64,000 bases of DNA from IMG/VR virus record IMGVR_UViG_3300044911_002321, positions 1-64,000 of that record; one strand, written 5' to 3'. A model generated the notes under the pieces. The model was not told the origin of the DNA and searched no databases. It saw only the letters and a program-made list of their open reading frames with translations. Numbering within the stretch: the first letter of the stretch is position 1; each line of letters begins with the position of its first letter. Below, in pieces: positions 5,363-59,977 of this stretch. Made by a program: the position numbers and the translations under genes. Origin of the DNA: a virus.

Positions 5363-5448
5363 TGGTAGGAGCGACAGGACTTGCACCTGCACGGCCAAAG
5401 GCCAACGCATTTTAAGTGCGTCATGTTTACTAATTACATCACGCTCCC
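5363..5448 (-). tRNA. tRNA-Leu (anticodon UAA)
   Basis: An 86-nt class II tRNA. Acceptor GGGAGCG pairs with CGCTCCT (first pair G:U) and CCA is encoded after discriminator A. D stem ATGT/ACAT; anticodon stem ACGCA/TGCGT with loop CTTAAAA, anticodon TAA. The long variable arm GGCC-TTT-GGCC is typical of Leu. T stem GCAGG/CCTGT with loop TGCAAGT, where the usual TTC is TGC. The D loop lacks the usual GG. The stop codon of the upstream gene (5439-5441) falls at tRNA positions 8-10. It would read UUA codons. Confidence 0.88.
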
Positions 5449-8221: not shown

Positions 8222-8259
8222 AAGACCTGGGACTTACACCGTAAGGATGCCCAGATCTT
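8222..8259 (-). ncRNA. structured leader element, UGUAAGU family, copy 1
   Basis: On the minus strand a fully paired 10-bp outer stem (AAGATCTGGG with CCCAGGTCTT) encloses CAT, a minimal CC-UUAC-GG hairpin and UGUAAGU. The stop codon of the upstream gene (8259-8261) touches its 5' edge. Same core as five other copies in this arm. Confidence 0.7.
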
Positions 8260-9427: not shown

Positions 9428-9466
9428 CCTGGGACTTACACCACACTAAATGTGTGGATGCCCAGG
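9428..9466 (-). ncRNA. structured leader element, UGUAAGU family, copy 2
   Basis: Outer stem CCTGGG/CCCAGG, internal CAT on the 5' side, inner stem CCACAC/GTGTGG, and UGUAAGU on the 3' side before CCCAGG. It lies about 30 nt upstream of the 9111-9398 start. Confidence 0.7.
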
Positions 9467-9735: not shown

Positions 9736-9945
9736 AAAGGATGAATACCGTGTTATAGAAGGGTAAATACCGTCTTATTATCTTAGATATAGGGTTTCAT
9801 ACGTTGTTAAAAAAGTGTATTAAACCTGGTGTCTAACGGATGAATAGCAGCTTATCCATACAACTTTCTAGAAAGGTATGAAACCCTATAGAGGGTTAGA
9901 TAAGACTGTATTCACTGTTGAATAAGATGGTATTGACGGTTTCCC
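9736..9945. repeat. iteron/palindrome element, copy A
   Basis: Non-coding. Contains a long inverted repeat with arms TTAGATATAGGGTTTCATAC (9783-9802) and GTATGAAACCCTATA plus GAGGGTTAGATAAG (9876-9904). It is flanked on both sides by copies of a GAATACCGnCTTAT-like motif (for example near 9752, 9767, 9841 and, inverted, near 9907 and 9930). A near DnaA box TTATCCATA is at 9852-9860. The same arrangement recurs at 59755-59977. Candidate replication or control region. Confidence 0.7.
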
Positions 9946-10138
9946 CCGTCTTCCCCATGTACATGTGTACTATTCCTTGGTACAAGTGGAGATATCTTTG
10001 GTACGTGTGTACTAGATATAGATATGAATGAAGGATATCCCTGGTACATACCCACTAGTTAGAGGTACATACCAGGGATGGGTAGGTATTAATACTTAAT
10101 ATTGTCTGGCAACAAAGAATTGCCAATACATGCCAATA
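9946..10138. other. non-coding stretch with GGTAC repeats
   Basis: No gene seen. Several GTAC-centred strings occur (GTACATGTGTAC, GGTACAAG, GGTACGTGTGTAC). A perfect 10-bp inverted repeat is at 10037-10079 (ATCCCTGGTA ... TACCAGGGAT, 23-nt spacer). It could hold operators or promoters for the minus-strand arm. Confidence 0.5.
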
Positions 10139-11375: not shown

Positions 11376-11418
11376 CCCTGGGACTTACACACCGTACTTA
11401 CGTCGGTGCTGCCCAGGG
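11376..11418 (-). ncRNA. structured leader element, UGUAAGU family, copy 3
   Basis: Outer stem CCCTGGG/CCCAGGG; CAG instead of CAU on the 5' side; inner stem CACCG/CGGTG; conserved UGUAAGU before the closing strand. It begins two bases after the upstream gene's stop. Confidence 0.7.
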
Positions 11419-11644: not shown

Positions 11645-11672
11645 GTTGAATTGAGGTAGGTGAATAGTTGAG

Positions 11673-11726
11673 CATGGGACTTACACCACTGTTATTGAGA
11701 AGAGTTCTCAATTGTGGATGCCCATG
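11673..11726 (-). ncRNA. structured leader element, UGUAAGU family, copy 4
   Basis: Outer stem CATGGG/CCCATG; CAT; a long inner arm made of CCAC/GTGG and TTGAGAA/TTCTCAA; then UGUAAGU. The inner arm is expanded relative to the other copies while the core is unchanged, as expected for a folded RNA. Confidence 0.7.
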
Positions 11727-12117: not shown

Positions 12118-12156
12118 ACTAGGACTTACACCACACATTGTGTGTGGATGCCTAGT
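12118..12156 (-). ncRNA. structured leader element, UGUAAGU family, copy 5
   Basis: Outer stem ACTAGG/CCTAGT with compensatory changes relative to the CCTGGG copies; CAT; inner stem CCACACA/TGTGTGG; UGUAAGU. The pairing changes on both strands support a selected RNA fold. Confidence 0.72.
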
Positions 12157-13088: not shown

Positions 13089-13110
13089 GTTAAATGCAAT
13101 GGAATGGAAT

Positions 13111-13151
13111 CCAGGATGTTGAGTCCTGGTGGGAAGGGCCGAAGCCCCTCC
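13111..13151 (-). ncRNA. tandem hairpins with CTCAACA loop
   Basis: On the minus strand GGAGGGGC-TTCG-GCCCTTCC (13132-13151) is followed by CCAGGA-CTCAACA-TCCTGG (13111-13129). The seven-base loop of the second hairpin resembles a tRNA T loop and recurs at 14127-14145. No U-run, so not a plain terminator. Confidence 0.6.
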
Positions 13152-13160
13152 AATCAGGAG

Positions 13161-13400
13161 TCAATCCTCATGCCTGCGTTCCCAACGAAGCAGATCCCTG
13201 TTGAGATCTACTTTGCGTTGGAGTACCACGCAGAATGGGACTAGGTCTTGGAACTGGGCTAACCCATCTTGCCATTGGAAGAAGAGATCGAGAGCAGCTT
13301 GACGCTGTTCTTCAATCTCTGCATCAATGACAGGGGAGTCTCTGCGAGCCAATAAACGTGCGTCTTGGGTCAGCAGTTGTTCAACAGCTTTAGGAGTCAT
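13161..13400 (-). CDS. helical hypothetical protein, 79 aa
   Basis: Nearly all helical (AEIEEQRQAALDLFFQWQDG, LQRKVDLNRDLLRWERRHE), rich in Leu, Gln and Arg. No family recognised. Confidence 0.58.
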   Translation of the reverse strand: MTPKAVEQLLTQDARLLARRDSPVIDAEIEEQRQAALDLFFQWQDGLAQFQDLVPFCVVLQRKVDLNRDLLRWERRHED

Positions 13401-13428
13401 GGTCTCCAGTTGGTGTCGTGTGGTGTGT

Positions 13429-13485
13429 TGCAGGTGTGACCTGCAGAAAACTCACCGGCAATACATGTGTACTACCGGGAGAGTT
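13429..13485 (-). promoter_or_regulatory. two-hairpin leader
   Basis: On the minus strand AACTC/GAGTT encloses a CCGG/CCGG stem (13449-13485) and is followed by TGCAGGT-CAC-ACCTGCA (13429-13445). Same 'large fold then short hairpin' order as neighbouring leaders. Confidence 0.5.
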
Positions 13486-13494
13486 ATGTGCAGA

Positions 13495-14126: not shown

Positions 14127-14182
14127 GCAGGATGTTGAGTCCTGCAGTAAACCCACCGACGTAGTACTGATGTACTGGTGGG
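14127..14182 (-). ncRNA. tandem stem-loops with CTCAACA loop
   Basis: Minus strand: CCCACC/GGTGGG (14152-14182) encloses AGTAC-ATCA-GTACT and is followed by GCAGGA-CTCAACA-TCCTGC (14127-14145). The second hairpin has the same loop as the one at 13111-13129 with a different stem. Confidence 0.6.
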
Positions 14183-14199
14183 AGGGCTTAGAGCAGGAA

Positions 14200-14433
14200 T
14201 CAGAATGCTACTGCATACATGATGTCTTGAAGCATGGTCATTGAGTAGTTGTAATACTCTCTCATCTCGTAGTAAAGCTCCTTGGTACCTGTCGGCATCC
14301 CTGACATGAATGTCAGGGAATCAAGGTCTTCCCACTCGCCATCTTTGATCTTCTGGAAGTGAAGCATAGAGCTGTCACCTCCATTCCAGATGACGCGATG
14401 GAGATTATCAAACTCAGGCTTGTAGATCAACAT
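14200..14433 (-). CDS. hypothetical protein, 77 aa
   Basis: Start MLIYKPEFDNLHRVIW at ATG 14433, placed by the leader hairpin upstream. Beta-rich first half, then methionine/tyrosine-rich helices (ELYYEMREYYNYSMTML). No family recognised. Confidence 0.6.
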   Translation of the reverse strand: MLIYKPEFDNLHRVIWNGGDSSMLHFQKIKDGEWEDLDSLTFMSGMPTGTKELYYEMREYYNYSMTMLQDIMYAVAF

Positions 14434-14449
14434 GGTGTTGTGTAGTAGA

Positions 14450-14525
14450 TGCCACGGGATTGTGGCAATAGTTGTGTGGGGCATTCGATGCCCCGGCTCA
14501 CGGCTGGTCAGAAGACCATCACAAC
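14450..14525 (-). ncRNA. tRNA-like structure 1 plus leader hairpin
   Basis: Minus strand: acceptor-like GTTGTG/CACAAC (14520-14525 with 14471-14476), hairpin TGGTC-TTCT-GACCA, a short GTGA arm, and T-like arm GGGGC-ATCGAAT-GCCCC. It is followed by TGCCAC-N6-GTGGCA (14450-14467). The fold includes the last 18 nt and the stop of the upstream gene. Confidence 0.6.
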
Positions 14526-14702
14526 GTCGTCGGCCTCCATCATCTCCTGGAAGGACATGATCTGCACGTCATGCGTGCCTTGGATGCCGTCGTTTAACTC
14601 GGGTGAGTTAAGTTGGAAGTCCATTTGTGCAGCTTCGATAAGTGCTTCTTCCCACTGGAAGGAGAAGCCGTGCTGCACGCCGTCAATCACGATGTAGTAC
14701 AT
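14508..14702 (-). CDS. hypothetical protein, 64 aa
   Basis: Start MYYIVIDGVQHGFSFQW at ATG 14702, preceded by CAACTCAACACC. Beta hairpin then helices ending MEADDVVMVF. No family recognised. Its 3' end is part of tRNA-like structure 1. Confidence 0.6.
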   Translation of the reverse strand: MYYIVIDGVQHGFSFQWEEALIEAAQMDFQLNSPELNDGIQGTHDVQIMSFQEMMEADDVVMVF

Positions 14703-14720
14703 GGTGTTGAGTTGAGTAGA

Positions 14721-14794
14721 TGCCACGGGATTGTGGCAATAACTGAGCAGGGGATTTGATCCCCCAGCATCACGCTCTACTTACGTAGGCTCAG
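14721..14794 (-). ncRNA. tRNA-like structure 2 plus leader hairpin
   Basis: The most tRNA-like copy. Minus strand: CTGAGC/GCTCAG (14789-14794 with 14743-14748), D-like CTAC-GTAA-GTAG, a minimal middle arm AGC-GTGAT-GCT, and T-like arm GGGGG-ATCAAAT-CCCCT joined to the acceptor without a gap. Then TGCCAC-N6-GTGGCA at 14721-14738. Total acceptor plus T stem is 11-12 bp. Confidence 0.65.
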
Positions 14795-14803
14795 CTAATA
14801 ACT

Positions 14804-14974
14804 TCAGCCTCGACGGATCTGAAGGTTCCTGTCTGCTTTACAAGCAGCAGAAATCTGCTGAGGCGTTGCTGCCTCGCAGAAGTAATTCGGATCACCTCCG
14901 AAGAAATGATCCGTAACCAAAGTAACTTTGCCGTCGTTAGTACGACGGACAAAGAACAGGTTGTTCAGTTGCAT
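14804..14974 (-). CDS. hypothetical protein, 56 aa
   Basis: Start MQLNNLFFVRRTNDGKVTL at ATG 14974, supported by GGAG six bases upstream; frames starting further upstream run through the leader. Beta-rich first half, then a helix PQQISAACKAD. No family recognised. Confidence 0.58.
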   Translation of the reverse strand: MQLNNLFFVRRTNDGKVTLVTDHFFGGDPNYFCEAATPQQISAACKADRNLQIRRG

Positions 14975-14994
14975 GGATCTCTCCATGTGTGTGG

Positions 14995-15064
14995 TGCCCA
15001 TCTCCACAGGGGGCAATAACTGGACCAGGGTTTGCACCTGGTCACCCGCTTAGACGGATCAGTT
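14995..15064 (-). ncRNA. tRNA-like structure 3 plus leader hairpin
   Basis: Minus strand: AACTG/CAGTT (15060-15064 with 15018-15022), small hairpin CCG-TCTAAG-CGG, T-like arm GACCAGG-TGCAAAC-CCTGGTC abutting the acceptor strand (5+7 = 12 bp). The upstream gene's stop TGA (15059-15061) is inside the fold. A variant leader hairpin TGCCC/GGGCA is at 14995-15015. Confidence 0.65.
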
Positions 15065-15241
15065 GGTTGGATAGTTGTTAGCTGCGCACCACGCAAGGTG
15101 GATGTCATGTGCCTCTACTGGCCACTCATGGTTGATGCATTGCTTTGCGGTCGCCTTATCCAACTGATGGATGGTGACCTGAGTACCAATGCCCATGATT
15201 GTGGCTGCGGCAATGACAATGGATGCGATGTGTTCGGTCAT
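15059..15241 (-). CDS. hypothetical protein with N-terminal membrane segment, 60 aa
   Basis: Start MTEHIASIVIAAATIMGIG at ATG 15241; the first 20 residues are hydrophobic enough for a membrane anchor. The rest includes HEWPVEAHDIHLAWC. No family recognised. Its stop lies in tRNA-like structure 3. Confidence 0.58.
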   Translation of the reverse strand: MTEHIASIVIAAATIMGIGTQVTIHQLDKATAKQCINHEWPVEAHDIHLAWCAANNYPTN

Positions 15242-15258
15242 GGTTGGTGTGAAGTAAA

Positions 15259-15322
15259 TGCCACTGGATTGTGGCAATGCTGATGGGAGGACTTGCACCT
15301 CCCTGTCCGCTTACGGATCAGC
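15259..15322 (-). ncRNA. tRNA-like structure 4 plus leader hairpin
   Basis: Minus strand: GCTGAT/ATCAGC (15317-15322 with 15279-15284), small hairpin CCG-TAAG-CGG, T-like arm GGGAGG-TGCAAGT-CCTCCC directly joined to the acceptor strand (6+6 = 12 bp). The stop TGA of the upstream gene is within the first stem. Leader hairpin TGCCAC-AATCCA-GTGGCA at 15259-15276. Confidence 0.68.
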
Positions 15323-15503
15323 GCCCGCTATAGGTAACGCGGGAGTTGTTGCGTTGGTTGTAACGGATGACGTCGCCTGTGATGCGGTCGTTGTAACGGA
15401 TGACGTCGCCAGTAATACGACGGTCGTTTGATTCGTGCCACTCTTGGGAAGCTGCCTGTGCGGCAGCAGAGAATGCACGTCCGAGGGATGTACGGAAACC
15501 CAT
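15318..15503 (-). CDS. hypothetical protein with internal repeat, 61 aa
   Basis: Start MGFRTSLGRAFSAAAQAAS at ATG 15503. It contains a direct repeat (R/D)RITGDVIRYN twice in a row, then SRVTYSGR. No family recognised. The DNA repeat is visible as two GGATGACGTCGCC units on the plus strand. Confidence 0.55.
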   Translation of the reverse strand: MGFRTSLGRAFSAAAQAASQEWHESNDRRITGDVIRYNDRITGDVIRYNQRNNSRVTYSGR

Positions 15504-15519
15504 GGTGTTAGGTAGTAGA

Positions 15520-15589
15520 TGCCACTGGATTGTGGCAATGACCAGAGCCAGGCATTGCACCTGGCTTGGGAGCTATGACTCACCTGGTC
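15520..15589 (-). ncRNA. tRNA-like structure 5 plus leader hairpin
   Basis: Minus strand: GACCAG/CTGGTC (15584-15589 with 15540-15545), hairpin GAG-TCATAG-CTC, T-like arm AGCCAGG-TGCAATG-CCTGGCT joined without a gap to the acceptor strand. The upstream stop TGA (15580-15582) follows the acceptor strand, as in the tRNA-Leu. Leader hairpin TGCCAC/GTGGCA at 15520-15537. Confidence 0.65.
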
Positions 15590-15765
15590 TGTAGTTGACG
15601 CACGAGCTTGCGCCCTGCGTCTAAGCTGAGGAGTGTGGAGCGATGCCACTCTCCTGGGCATTGCGCCTTGAGGATCATCTTCGTGACTCTCACGAGATTC
15701 TCCTCCTTGTTCACCTGGAACTTATAGACGGCTTCGTCTGTGGTCAGGGTGAAGTAGATGATCAT
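15580..15765 (-). CDS. hypothetical protein, 61 aa
   Basis: Start MIIYFTLTTDEAVYKFQV at ATG 15765 with AGAGGA ten bases upstream, one of few Shine-Dalgarno-like sites in this arm. Beta-rich N-terminus, helical basic C-terminus (GRKLVRQLQTR). No family recognised. A structured stretch (GACGT/ACGTC enclosing CGCAG/CTGCG) lies upstream near 15790-15825. Confidence 0.58.
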   Translation of the reverse strand: MIIYFTLTTDEAVYKFQVNKEENLVRVTKMILKAQCPGEWHRSTLLSLDAGRKLVRQLQTR

Positions 15766-42541: not shown

Positions 42542-45375
42542 TGGGCGTCTTTAATGACTATGTTTCTTCTTATGGCGATATTGCACAGGCTTATAGTACT
42601 TGGTTGAATGACAGGGGCAATATTCATTGGTCTCAATATGTTGACGCAGCGCCAGATTTAACGCAAGCGTGGCAAGCTGCTAACAAAAGAAATGGCATAT
42701 CAAAATGGGATTGGGGGTACAAACATTATCAAAACATAGGGAAAAACGAAGGACGTTTAACGCCAAAGATTGTAAACACAAACGGTTTGCCAGATACACC
42801 AGGAGATAAAGGACGTGGTGGGTATACAACACTACCCGTGTATCAAGATGACCAAGGAAGGCCATATACTAACGAAACAGCCCAGGAAGGGTTTGGATAT
42901 GACCACTGGGATAAACAAGGTGGGAAAAATGAGTATCGTATTTTACCTGGCGGCGGTCAATTCAACATTCAACCTGATGGCAGTATTTCGGTAAACACAG
43001 AATCTATTGGGACAGAGGCTCAACAGGCATTTAAAAACTTTGCAAATAGATACAACAGCAGCAATGGCACTAATTTTAAAGAAATTGCGGATTCTTTAAA
43101 CGCATTAGGAACAACTGAATCAAAAATACTAACAGAATCAGGATCAACTAATACACTTGTTAATGCCTTTTACGGCAAAGTTTCCCCTTGGGATCCAAAA
43201 GACAACGCGGCTTATCAACCGCCAATGGGAGCATTTGATCCTACTTACTACGTCACAACAGATCAAGGAAGAGAAGCATATGATCAGTGGCAAAAAGCTG
43301 TTGAAGGCACTATTAATATCGGTGGTCAAGCTTATCCAGATGTTTCAATAGTTGGAAAGTACAACCAAGATTCGTTTTTACAGTATAACTATGCAGTTGT
43401 ACATGGTAAAACCGAACGAGGAAATCGAATTGTCAAAGCGGAGGCCGCCGAGGATTTCAAAGAAATCCCAATGACCGATGCACAGTACCAATTGTATCGC
43501 GATCAGGTATTGGGTCTAGGTTCTTTTACCACATTGAAAGAATGGGAAGCAGCACAAGATCCCGCATTCTTAAAGGAGTGGATTTCTTCTTTATCCCCAG
43601 AAGATGCGGCAGATCGCAAGAGTGGCTACTTAACAATTCCATCTATTACTCAATTACCAGAAAAGATTCGCTCGCAAGCAAAGATGTCGCGAGGGAATAC
43701 ACTTCTTGAAGGAAAGTTAACTACTGTACTTGGAGCAAAAGAACAAGAGGCAGCCGATAAGTTCAGATCTTTAACCGTTGATACGTTTAAAGAAACTTTA
43801 AACGAGTATAAAAAACAACGTGCCAAAGAACAGCAGTTTGATTTTTACAGCGGTATGCCAGGGTTTGATGAGATTTTTAACGTAAACAAAGAACTGTCTA
43901 ATTCCCTTTTAGGGGAGACTGGCGTAGGAGGTCTTCTTTCGTTAACAGGACAGAACCAAGAAAAATCAACAGATAGTTTAGAGAGACAGTTTTCTGCGCT
44001 AACTGGTATCCCATCTAAAGCAAATACAGTTTATAACTGGCAAAAATGGTTTGATGAAACGTTAACAAAACGCTATCAAGAAGGAGCTGACTTTGCAGAT
44101 TTTCAAGACCCTGCTAAACAATACACAATTGACAAAGAATTTGCAGAGGACTATATCAAGCGTTATTTAAATCCTCGTTTTAATACCTCGCGTTCTATGT
44201 CAGAATTTATGAGTTACATGGATGTGACTCAAGGAGAGGAAAATATTTTCCAAACACAAAGTGCATTGAACTCTTTGAAAACGCTGGCAGATTTACGAGC
44301 ACAAAAATATTTAGACGACATCAAAAACTCAGGTACCTCTGGGTTTGATTCCGAGTTTTATTTTAATCCTTCCGGAGGAGATGTAGATATCTCAAAGCAC
44401 AATTTACAAAAAACAAAAGTAACTGAAGACTGGGACAATGCCAGAAGGAATGGAGAGCAAGTTGTCCCTGGTACAAATCCACCACAGACCTGGAACCAAC
44501 TGGCTTATTTCCATGGGTACAACCTAAACGACAAAGCACAATTTGCTAAATTGCACTATCAGGTTTATGGAAGGCAACAGGGATTTGACCCGGCGCGTGA
44601 CAAGTTATCCTTTAATGCTGCACAGTCTTTTATTGATAATGACATACTTCCTGCTATTGCAAATGAAAAATTAAAACTAGGTGGTGTTTCTTTTTTAAAC
44701 TTTGTAACACCTCGTGAGTATGCAGACAAGATGCTGGAAGGTATTGACCCTGCCAAGAATAAACCTGAGTGGGAGAAAGTGCTTGAGTCTATGGGGCTTT
44801 CGGGCAAAGACATGGGTATTGAAGAAGTAAAGACGTACATTGAAGAGGCTTTTCAAACAGGAGAAGCAACTAAAATCCGTGAAGCAATCAAATACTTGAA
44901 CGAAAAGAAAGAGAAGGTAACGCAAGAAAAACTTGGCGTAGACTATATTCAACGTCCAGAAGACACTGAGGCGCGTACTAACCCAAATGAAACTGAACTC
45001 TATAACGTATTTAAGAACGCAGGGTTTTCTGGAACAGAAGATGATTTTTACAAAGAGTTTATGCCAGACGTTAATCGAGAAGATATGGAACTTTTGACAC
45101 AGGCAGGAAAAGGCTTTAAAGAAGGGAGTATATTTAGTAAGTTAAACAGTAGTGATCCATTTGAATCCTTGGGTTCAATTGAAGGCTTGTTTACAGATGA
45201 AGACAACACTGAAGAAACAAGCAGTAAGACAAGCTCTTCTGCAGAAGATAAGTCTTATTTCAAGTTGTATAACGATGATGATACCGAGGATACAGTAACC
45301 GCAAAATCAAAGTCAGGCCAAGGATTTCTTGGTAGTTTCACTAGTGCATTTAAAGGTTTAACACCCAAGTATTAA
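42541..45375 (+). CDS. large virion protein, 944 aa
   Basis: Start ATG 42541. Near the N-terminus (about 45-75) KWDWGYKHYQNIGKNEGRL, and near residue 660-690 YFHGYNLNDKAQFAKLHYQV then YGRQQGF. Both match the 'HYxxxGxxEGR' type of repeat found in surface and virion proteins. The rest is long, charged and helical with a Ser/Thr-rich end. Size and place before the lysozyme suggest a tail or internal protein. Confidence 0.6.
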   Translation: MGVFNDYVSSYGDIAQAYSTWLNDRGNIHWSQYVDAAPDLTQAWQAANKRNGISKWDWGYKHYQNIGKNEGRLTPKIVNTNGLPDTPGDKGRGGYTTLPVYQDDQGRPYTNETAQEGFGYDHWDKQGGKNEYRILPGGGQFNIQPDGSISVNTESIGTEAQQAFKNFANRYNSSNGTNFKEIADSLNALGTTESKILTESGSTNTLVNAFYGKVSPWDPKDNAAYQPPMGAFDPTYYVTTDQGREAYDQWQKAVEGTINIGGQAYPDVSIVGKYNQDSFLQYNYAVVHGKTERGNRIVKAEAAEDFKEIPMTDAQYQLYRDQVLGLGSFTTLKEWEAAQDPAFLKEWISSLSPEDAADRKSGYLTIPSITQLPEKIRSQAKMSRGNTLLEGKLTTVLGAKEQEAADKFRSLTVDTFKETLNEYKKQRAKEQQFDFYSGMPGFDEIFNVNKELSNSLLGETGVGGLLSLTGQNQEKSTDSLERQFSALTGIPSKANTVYNWQKWFDETLTKRYQEGADFADFQDPAKQYTIDKEFAEDYIKRYLNPRFNTSRSMSEFMSYMDVTQGEENIFQTQSALNSLKTLADLRAQKYLDDIKNSGTSGFDSEFYFNPSGGDVDISKHNLQKTKVTEDWDNARRNGEQVVPGTNPPQTWNQLAYFHGYNLNDKAQFAKLHYQVYGRQQGFDPARDKLSFNAAQSFIDNDILPAIANEKLKLGGVSFLNFVTPREYADKMLEGIDPAKNKPEWEKVLESMGLSGKDMGIEEVKTYIEEAFQTGEATKIREAIKYLNEKKEKVTQEKLGVDYIQRPEDTEARTNPNETELYNVFKNAGFSGTEDDFYKEFMPDVNREDMELLTQAGKGFKEGSIFSKLNSSDPFESLGSIEGLFTDEDNTEETSSKTSSSAEDKSYFKLYNDDDTEDTVTAKSKSGQGFLGSFTSAFKGLTPKY

Positions 45376-59688: not shown

Positions 59689-59754
59689 GACCTCCTGGTG
59701 GTGGGGACCATGACACTGTACCACTGTTGGGAAGTGTACGCAAGAGAAACTGTG

Positions 59755-59977
59755 AATACCGGCTTGTGGAGGGGTGAATACCGCCTTATTTACTTAGATA
59801 TAGGGTTTCATACTGTGTTGAAAAAGTGTTGCACCTCTGTGTGGCTTCATGATTTTTTCCACAAATGCAACACTGTTTTAACAACGTATGAAACCCTATA
59901 GAGGGTTAGATAAGGCTGTATTCATCCTTGAATAGGACGGTATTCATTGTTTTACCCCTCTCCGTACGTTTTCCACA
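59755..59977. repeat. iteron/palindrome element, copy B
   Basis: Non-coding, between two minus-strand genes. Arms TTAGATATAGGGTTTCATAC (59794-59813) and GTATGAAACCCTATA plus GAGGGTTAGATAAG (59886-59914), extended inward by GTGTTGAAAAAGTGTTGCA and its near-complement. Flanked by GAATACCGnCTTAT-type motifs (59755, 59776 and, inverted, 59914, 59935). Exact DnaA boxes TTTTCCACA at 59855-59863 and 59969-59977. Counterpart of 9736-9945. Confidence 0.72.

Follow-up and report, generated by a model that had tools for sequence, protein, structure and literature searches.

What are the structured sequences that stand between the small genes of this phage locus, and what do they do there? The window, i.e. 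the whole stretch of 64,000 nucleotides that was analysed, is part of a 70,387-base IMG/VR record that is related to Synechococcus phage S-EIV1, a freshwater isolate (80% identity over one stretch of 800 bases). On its minus strand, six genes of 56-77 codons are kept apart by five tRNA-like folds. The genes occupy 15580..15765 (61 aa, upstream of fold 1), 15318..15503 (61 aa, between folds 1 and 2), 15059..15241 (60 aa, between folds 2 and 3), 14804..14974 (56 aa, between folds 3 and 4), 14508..14702 (64 aa, between folds 4 and 5) and 14200..14433 (77 aa, after fold 5). None of them has a match in Pfam or PHROGs; the 60-aa product has a homologue in phage S-EIV1 (43%).

We propose that each element between these genes is an mRNA boundary composed of two abutting RNA structures, with RNase Z cutting after the discriminator base. 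The sequences themselves show the anatomy, its covariation and fixed spacing, the obligate coupling of fold and leader, the modularity of the cassettes and the occurrence in phages and hosts. We infer the cleavage, the enzyme and the protection of the ends, and hold the chances of the proposal to be slightly better than even.

Folds and leaders of the window

A sequence-only reading had placed five folds at 14450-15589. All of them are present, on the minus strand between 14471 and 15589, and their T loops are those described: TGCAATG, TGCAAGT, TGCAAAC, ATCAAAT and ATCGAAT in folds 1 to 5. The upstream stop codon is indeed inside the fold in four of the five, the exception being fold 4 with its TGA 9 nt upstream. 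The dimensions need some correction. The acceptor, given as 5-6 bp, ranges from 4 to 9 bp, while the total of 11-13 bp agrees with a modal value of 12 bp. Instead of one or two short hairpins throughout, acceptor and T arm are separated by a single mini-hairpin, and by two only in folds 4 and 5. The folds measure about 44-58 nt and have no anticodon arm.

Fold 1 (15540..15589) combines the acceptor GACCAG/CTGGTC (6 bp), a mini-hairpin and the T arm AGCCAGG-TGCAATG-CCTGGCT into a 13-bp coaxial helix. Fold 2 (15279..15322) has the acceptor GCTGAT/ATCAGC, the mini-hairpin CCG-TAAG-CGG and the T arm GGGAGG-TGCAAGT-CCTCCC, with a helix of 12 bp. Fold 3 (15018..15064; AACTG/CAGTT, CCG-TCTAAG-CGG, GACCAGG-TGCAAAC-CCTGGTC) also reaches 12 bp and represents the commonest subtype. 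In these three the enclosed stop codon is TGA. Fold 4 (14740..14797) consists of the acceptor TAGCTGAG/CTCAGTTA, two mini-hairpins and the T arm TGGGGG-ATCAAAT-CCCCTG. Fold 5 (14471..14525) has the acceptor GTTGTG/CACAAC, whose 5' strand lies within coding sequence, a hairpin over the stop codon, a mini-hairpin, the T arm GGGGC-ATCGAAT-GCCCC and one unpaired A.

Compared with shuffled sequences, 3' structure included, folds 1 to 5 have z-scores of -4.4, -3.5, -2.2, -5.3 and -3.0. The minimum free energy structure of fold 5 keeps the T arm and lacks the acceptor stem, so that this acceptor rests on comparison with relatives. The covariance model R1 recognizes fold 3 with 73.1 bits (E 2.5e-19) and fold 2 with 33.8 bits, gives fold 4 a weak score and misses fold 5. 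Because R1 covers the CCGTNNAAGCGG subtype only, counts obtained with it are lower bounds.

Known RNA families do not account for the folds. The Rfam tRNA model RF00005 and ARAGORN find a single tRNA in the window, tRNA-Leu at 5363-5448, and no tRNA match in nine element-rich phage loci, even with E up to 5. At gathering and permissive thresholds, no Rfam family covers the fold in phage or host loci, and searches of open-access papers found no report of such elements. With TGCAAGT, the tRNA-Leu(UAA) itself shows the T loop of fold 2, which is unusual in having G55. In its slot, nine relatives (L011, L035, L039, L048, L058, L060, L069, L076, L123) carry tRNAs with very different bodies and the UAA anticodon kept, several of them between near-identical flanks. 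Some are 86-88 nt long with a long variable arm and some 74-76 nt without it; the short ones possibly do not accept leucine.

The second half of the element was overlooked in the sequence-only reading. Each fold is followed by an unpaired discriminator base and a U, and then by the structured leader of the next gene. In four of the five this is the hairpin ATTGCCACAATCC[A/C]GTGGCAT, i.e. UGCCAC-AAUCC[A/C]-GUGGCA (four matches, 0.02 expected); leader 3 alone forms an H-type pseudoknot, UGCCC-CCU-GUGG-AGAU-GGGCA-CCAC. Past the structure comes an unstructured CA-rich stretch and then ATG; the start codon lies about 30-50 nt past the fold-leader junction. Leader 1 (15504..15539, minus strand, as the others) begins with discriminator A (15539) and U, continues with hairpin TGCCAC-AATCCA-GTGGCA (15520-15537) and the unstructured stretch, and ends before ATG at 15501-15503. 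Leader 2 (15242..15278) has discriminator A, U and the same hairpin at 15259-15276, with ATG at 15239-15241. Leader 3 (14975..15017) consists of discriminator A, U, the pseudoknot at 14991-15015 and a Shine-Dalgarno/start hairpin CATGGA-GAGA-TCCATG, with ATG at 14972-14974. The hairpin TGCCAC-AATCCC-GTGGCA is found in the last two: in leader 4 (14703..14739) it precedes CTCAACTCAACACC and ATG at 14700-14702, and in leader 5 (14434..14470) it follows U, discriminator A and U, with ATG at 14431-14433.

The hairpin CATGGA-GAGA-TCCATG (14972-14991 in the window) recurs in many pseudoknot leaders, where it pairs GGAG with the start region; it looks like a translational switch or thermosensor. Two other readings of the hairpin leaders were rejected. 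Intrinsic terminators (GC hairpin and U-run) are at chance level, leader hairpin 2 alone being flagged, with a weak tail, and resemblance to sigma-70 promoters is at chance level as well.

Further intergenic structures occur on the minus strand. One family (8226-8258, 9428-9465, 11377-11416, 11670-11724 and 12118-12152) has an outer stem, an internal loop with CAT/CAG opposite TGTAAGT, and an inner hairpin; it is present in S-EIV1, and phage loci contain 52 distinct copies vs 3 in shuffles. In a third type (13100-13165, 13425-13490, 14150-14225), one strand can pair with either of two partner copies (e.g. TCCTG ... CAGGA CTCAACA TCCTGG), which makes it a possible switch. In addition, two pairs of repeats of 77 and 86 nt, 81-84% identical and containing TAGGGTTTCATAC-type sequence, lie 50 kb apart at 9742-9951 and 59753-59961. 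They are possible replication or control sites.

Relatives and covariation

The hairpin leader sequence alone retrieves 50 IMG/VR stretches, and in all but two of them it stands after a fold of the same plan with different stem sequence. The two, L026 and L032, are chance matches in unrelated contigs, and were set aside together with L085, L086 and L115 as chance pattern matches. The bias of searching with a single leader type was removed by two further scans. Firstly, an independent scan anchored on the fold-internal sequence CTGATCCGTNNAAGCGGG finds at least 119 stretches. Secondly, a descriptor made of acceptor stem, T stem and T-like loop, with no leader required, gives 107 distinct matches in 698 kb of loci vs 0 in Markov shuffles; over 1.44 Mb (IMG/VR contigs and S-EIV1) it finds 262 distinct copies. 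S-EIV1 has two elements, on the complementary strand of KJ410740 at 43454-43501 and 43748-43795.

The claim that stems differ in sequence and keep their pairing holds among these relatives, and the original idea thereby survives one of its own refuting conditions, a lack of covariation. For the commonest subtype we collected 101 sequences, chosen by internal sequence outside the T arm. The helix forms in 96 of them; of the other five, three are chance matches, one has an inserted base and one is truncated where its contig stops. Among 33 distinct T stems, 31 are fully paired; pairing amounts to 99.7% vs 67% with 3' strands shuffled. The covariation score of a 40-sequence alignment is 0.538 vs 0.152 when shuffled, and structures slid along the alignment reach at most 0.134. 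All these counts are uncorrected for relatedness. The sequence of the mini-hairpin CCGTNNAAGCGG is conserved beyond the needs of a mere linker, which hints at a specific binder.

The combined acceptor and T helix is mostly 12 bp long, as in tRNA (133 of 262 copies, the modal value), although the share of each stem varies (4+7, 5+7, 6+6, 7+5 or 8+5). When the loop filter is omitted, 131 of 222 structures scoring at least 12 (59%) carry a T-type loop [ATG][TG]C[AG]ANN, which fits about 1% of random 7-mers. The distance from the end of the T loop to the start of the leader (TTRCC) is restricted too: within a searched range of 8-18 nt, 13 nt (206 elements) and 14 nt (29 elements) are the sole values found, and TT stands at one of them in every one of the 235 elements whose leader is of the TTRCC kind. 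The discriminator is A in 178 of 206. Leaders other than TTRCC are mostly other hairpins in the same position.

Fold and leader are tightly coupled. A strict fold ends within 3 nt of 80 of 95 hairpin leaders; the 14 exceptions listed comprise ten folds of the bulged fold-5 type, two mismatch variants and two chance matches. Directly upstream of pseudoknot leaders a strict fold is present in 101 of 110 cases; a chance match accounts for one of the listed exceptions, and a fold with a single mismatch or bulge for each of the others. These leaders are thus practically never found except behind a fold, which is the expected outcome if the leader owes its 5' end to the fold. The pseudoknot covaries as well: stem 2 is fully paired in 113 of 114 leaders vs 74 expected by shuffling, in eight pair combinations including GCGG/CCGC, GTGG/CCAC, GCAG/CTGC and CAGG/CCTG.

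The elements are not confined to phages. In one cyanobacterial family, chosen as that of the one cyanobacterial genome matching the pattern, the subtype covariance model matches 32 of 201 genomes; a phylum sample of 244 genomes gives four matches, all among those of the family. The evidence, which includes the host of S-EIV1, suggests that these genomes are picocyanobacterial. In an alignment fitted to the model, host copies show a covariation score of 0.455 vs 0.168. Most of them lie 8-25 nt past the stop codon of a conserved histone-like gene, and many are on large chromosomal contigs; on these grounds a prophage origin was rejected for most. The encoded protein (in L171, L175, L178, L179 and others) is rich in lysine and alanine (MSQLSIKVSAKGEAMIA...) and belongs to no clear Pfam family. 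Five other host copies precede a DUF932-type gene, at least one of them standing behind an ArdC gene. These five are followed by a TTGCCGG or TCGCCGC hairpin with phage geometry, and the set may be mobile.

Behind the histone-like gene, host copies are followed by U-rich DNA and often by no same-strand gene; for many host copies no such gene was found within 260 nt downstream. The copies behind the histone-like gene show a location at the 3' end that does not depend on a gene downstream. Because a close same-strand gene is often missing behind host copies, 3'-end formation describes the element better than punctuation does.

From tRNA-like fold to a proposed mRNA boundary

How could such an element work? 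We suggest that the upstream half is a minimal tRNA mimic, in which the acceptor would stack on the T arm to give 12-13 bp and a mini-hairpin would replace the D and anticodon arms. This mimic would form the 3' end of the upstream gene's mRNA, and the hairpin or H-type pseudoknot two bases further on would form the 5' end of the next one. Host RNase Z, the tRNA 3'-end endonuclease, would recognize the T-loop and the 12-bp helix and cut after the unpaired discriminator base, just before UU. The upstream mRNA would then retain its stop codon and end in the tRNA-like structure, to which CCA may be added, while the next mRNA would be freed with a folded 5' end resistant to RNase J and RNase E.

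Several features argue for RNase Z in particular. A 12-bp acceptor/T helix, a T-loop, a free discriminator with U74/U75 behind it and the absence of CCA are all present in the elements and fit an RNase Z substrate, and the structured leader begins right at the predicted cut. Since only about two bases between fold and leader structure are unpaired, there is little room for a single-strand RNase. Downstream uracils are said to stimulate the B. subtilis enzyme (work attributed to Pellegrini et al., 2012). Host tRNA genes in our sample look alike: 12 of 13 clean ones lack CCA, and 9 of 13 have UU after the discriminator, as in the folds. The cut by RNase Z falls behind N73, and a C at position 74 inhibits the enzyme (PMC3161902); its gene is single-copy in cyanobacteria (PMC10989914). 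Against RNase Z stands the elbow, which the enzyme grips in tRNA (PMC4810234): the usual loop UGCAA has G55 in place of the near-invariant U55, and no D-loop partner for an elbow is visible. Furthermore, we have to consider length. RNase Z can be inhibited by a long 5' leader, a position taken here by the entire upstream mRNA, which may hinder the enzyme.

The sequence-only reading had the transcript cut into single-gene mRNAs by way of RNase P and tRNA 3' processing enzymes, or else the ends protected. Full excision of the fold between mRNAs, as in mitochondria, would agree with the true tRNA-Leu gene that occupies an equivalent slot between two genes, and acceptor/T-arm minihelices are model substrates of RNase P. 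However, in 209 of 251 elements the fold encloses the stop codon of the gene before it. RNase P is disfavoured because a cut at the 5' end of the acceptor would remove this stop codon from the mRNA; in fold 5 the acceptor 5' strand is even coding sequence. Of the original idea, the RNase Z half is retained as a prediction based on substrate-like anatomy and the RNase P half is given little weight, and we regard excision by both enzymes as very unlikely.

The position of the stop codon, which is offset 2-3 nt into the acceptor strand in 138 of 251 elements, may also evoke a translational device. The fold over the stop would then, together with the leader, direct termination-reinitiation or hand the ribosome over in the manner of an intergenic IRES. 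The start codon at its short distance past the junction and the absence of a clear Shine-Dalgarno sequence from hairpin leaders suit this explanation. It is difficult to reconcile with the many host copies that lack a nearby same-strand gene to be translated next, and with leaders of unrelated structure standing behind one and the same fold type, and we give it a very slim chance.

A competitor of the RNase Z proposal is a passive cap: the fold would block 3' exonucleases and shield mRNA ends on its own, and another nuclease would cut or the ends would form separately. The stability of the folds against shuffles and the host copies in front of U-rich DNA, often with no same-strand gene, favour it. 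Nevertheless, a cap needs neither T-loop and 12-13 bp ruler nor free discriminator and UU, nor an obligatory 5' structure 2 nt further on, and intrinsic terminators in the array do not exceed chance. We consider a passive cap unlikely.

The way in which elements are combined with genes provides another view of their unit. The type of fold goes with the gene upstream (purity 0.85, against 0.66 after shuffling) and that of the leader with the gene downstream (0.86 against 0.55), while 28 of 31 upstream gene families pair with more than one downstream family. Because the fold follows the gene before it and the leader the gene after it, the shuffling unit is leader + ORF + fold, which is the same unit as the predicted processed mRNA. 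Such strong modularity would be expected also from recombination sites acting in DNA, like integron attC, that shuffle small genes. The conservation of the T-loop points to RNA instead, and the phage integrase domain PF00589 is absent from this record (possibly not a complete genome), S-EIV1 and two relatives, the control being found in 14 of 14 genomes. Short shared junctions and ordinary homologous recombination explain the shuffling with no dedicated enzyme, and dedicated DNA sites appear highly improbable to us.

We also put forward a broader proposal, which we rate at somewhat below even chances. Picocyanobacteria and their phages would share an undescribed route of mRNA 3'-end formation that uses a tRNA-like fold and the tRNA 3' machinery. 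Phages would have multiplied it into arrays, every cut laying bare a hairpin or pseudoknot that caps the 5' end, and the units of mRNA, processing and cassette would coincide. If this is true, tRNA punctuation of the mitochondrial style is found in bacterial chromosomes and a bacterial virus as well, and host enzymes alone allow a phage to divide the long message of its tiny genes into mRNAs that are each protected. Hundreds of minimal tRNA mimics would present a natural set for testing the requirements of tRNA enzymes; a new family of pseudoknot leaders would be a further gain, as would a module that keeps genes apart in synthetic operons. Because the isolated phage S-EIV1 has two copies, the idea is directly testable.

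Comparison with known systems

At the sequence level, the folds immediately follow or overlap stop codons and precede leaders. Several known systems resemble the elements in some respects. What was called a "tRNA-like gene" in halovirus HF2 is an attP site and unrelated. Integron attC cassettes, too, are small ORFs strung into arrays, with a structured 3' element of variable sequence behind each one, and are shuffled; our folds differ from attC by the T-loop and tRNA ruler, by RNA-type conservation and by the lack of a detected integrase. The mascRNA and menRNA sites belong to vertebrate lncRNAs, and RNase P cuts 5' of their cloverleaf-like fold. In that module (MALAT1, NEAT1) a tRNA-like fold likewise makes an RNA end via tRNA enzymes (PMC12941219).

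The tRNA-like domain of tmRNA, a molecule that is two-piece in picocyanobacteria (PMC1242208), is likewise reduced to acceptor and T arm. In contrast to tmRNA, the folds have no tag reading frame and occur in several copies per genome between genes, and cmscan at a permissive threshold gives no Rfam match to tmRNA in phage and host loci.

By working principle, the nearest systems are plant mitochondrial t-elements and mitochondrial tRNA punctuation. The t-elements are tRNA-like, lie at the ends of protein genes, encode no CCA and define mRNA ends through recognition by RNase P/RNase Z; they show homology to complete tRNA genes, and a genome has only a few of them (PMC11658184). The folds, unlike t-elements, have no anticodon arm and no tRNA or Rfam match, form arrays, overlap stop codons and are coupled to a structured leader. 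Mitochondrial punctuation likewise places tRNA-type signals between the genes of a polycistronic transcript (PMC9181182), but there real tRNAs are excised by RNase P and RNase Z, whereas the folds are degenerate mimics whose stop codons are compatible with a 3' cut only. Sequence comparison gives no support for descent from a tRNA, tmRNA, t-element or attC site, and the folds would constitute an unlisted RNA family. On present evidence this family is probably best filed with the tRNA-like mRNA processing signals, with RNase Z as the candidate enzyme.
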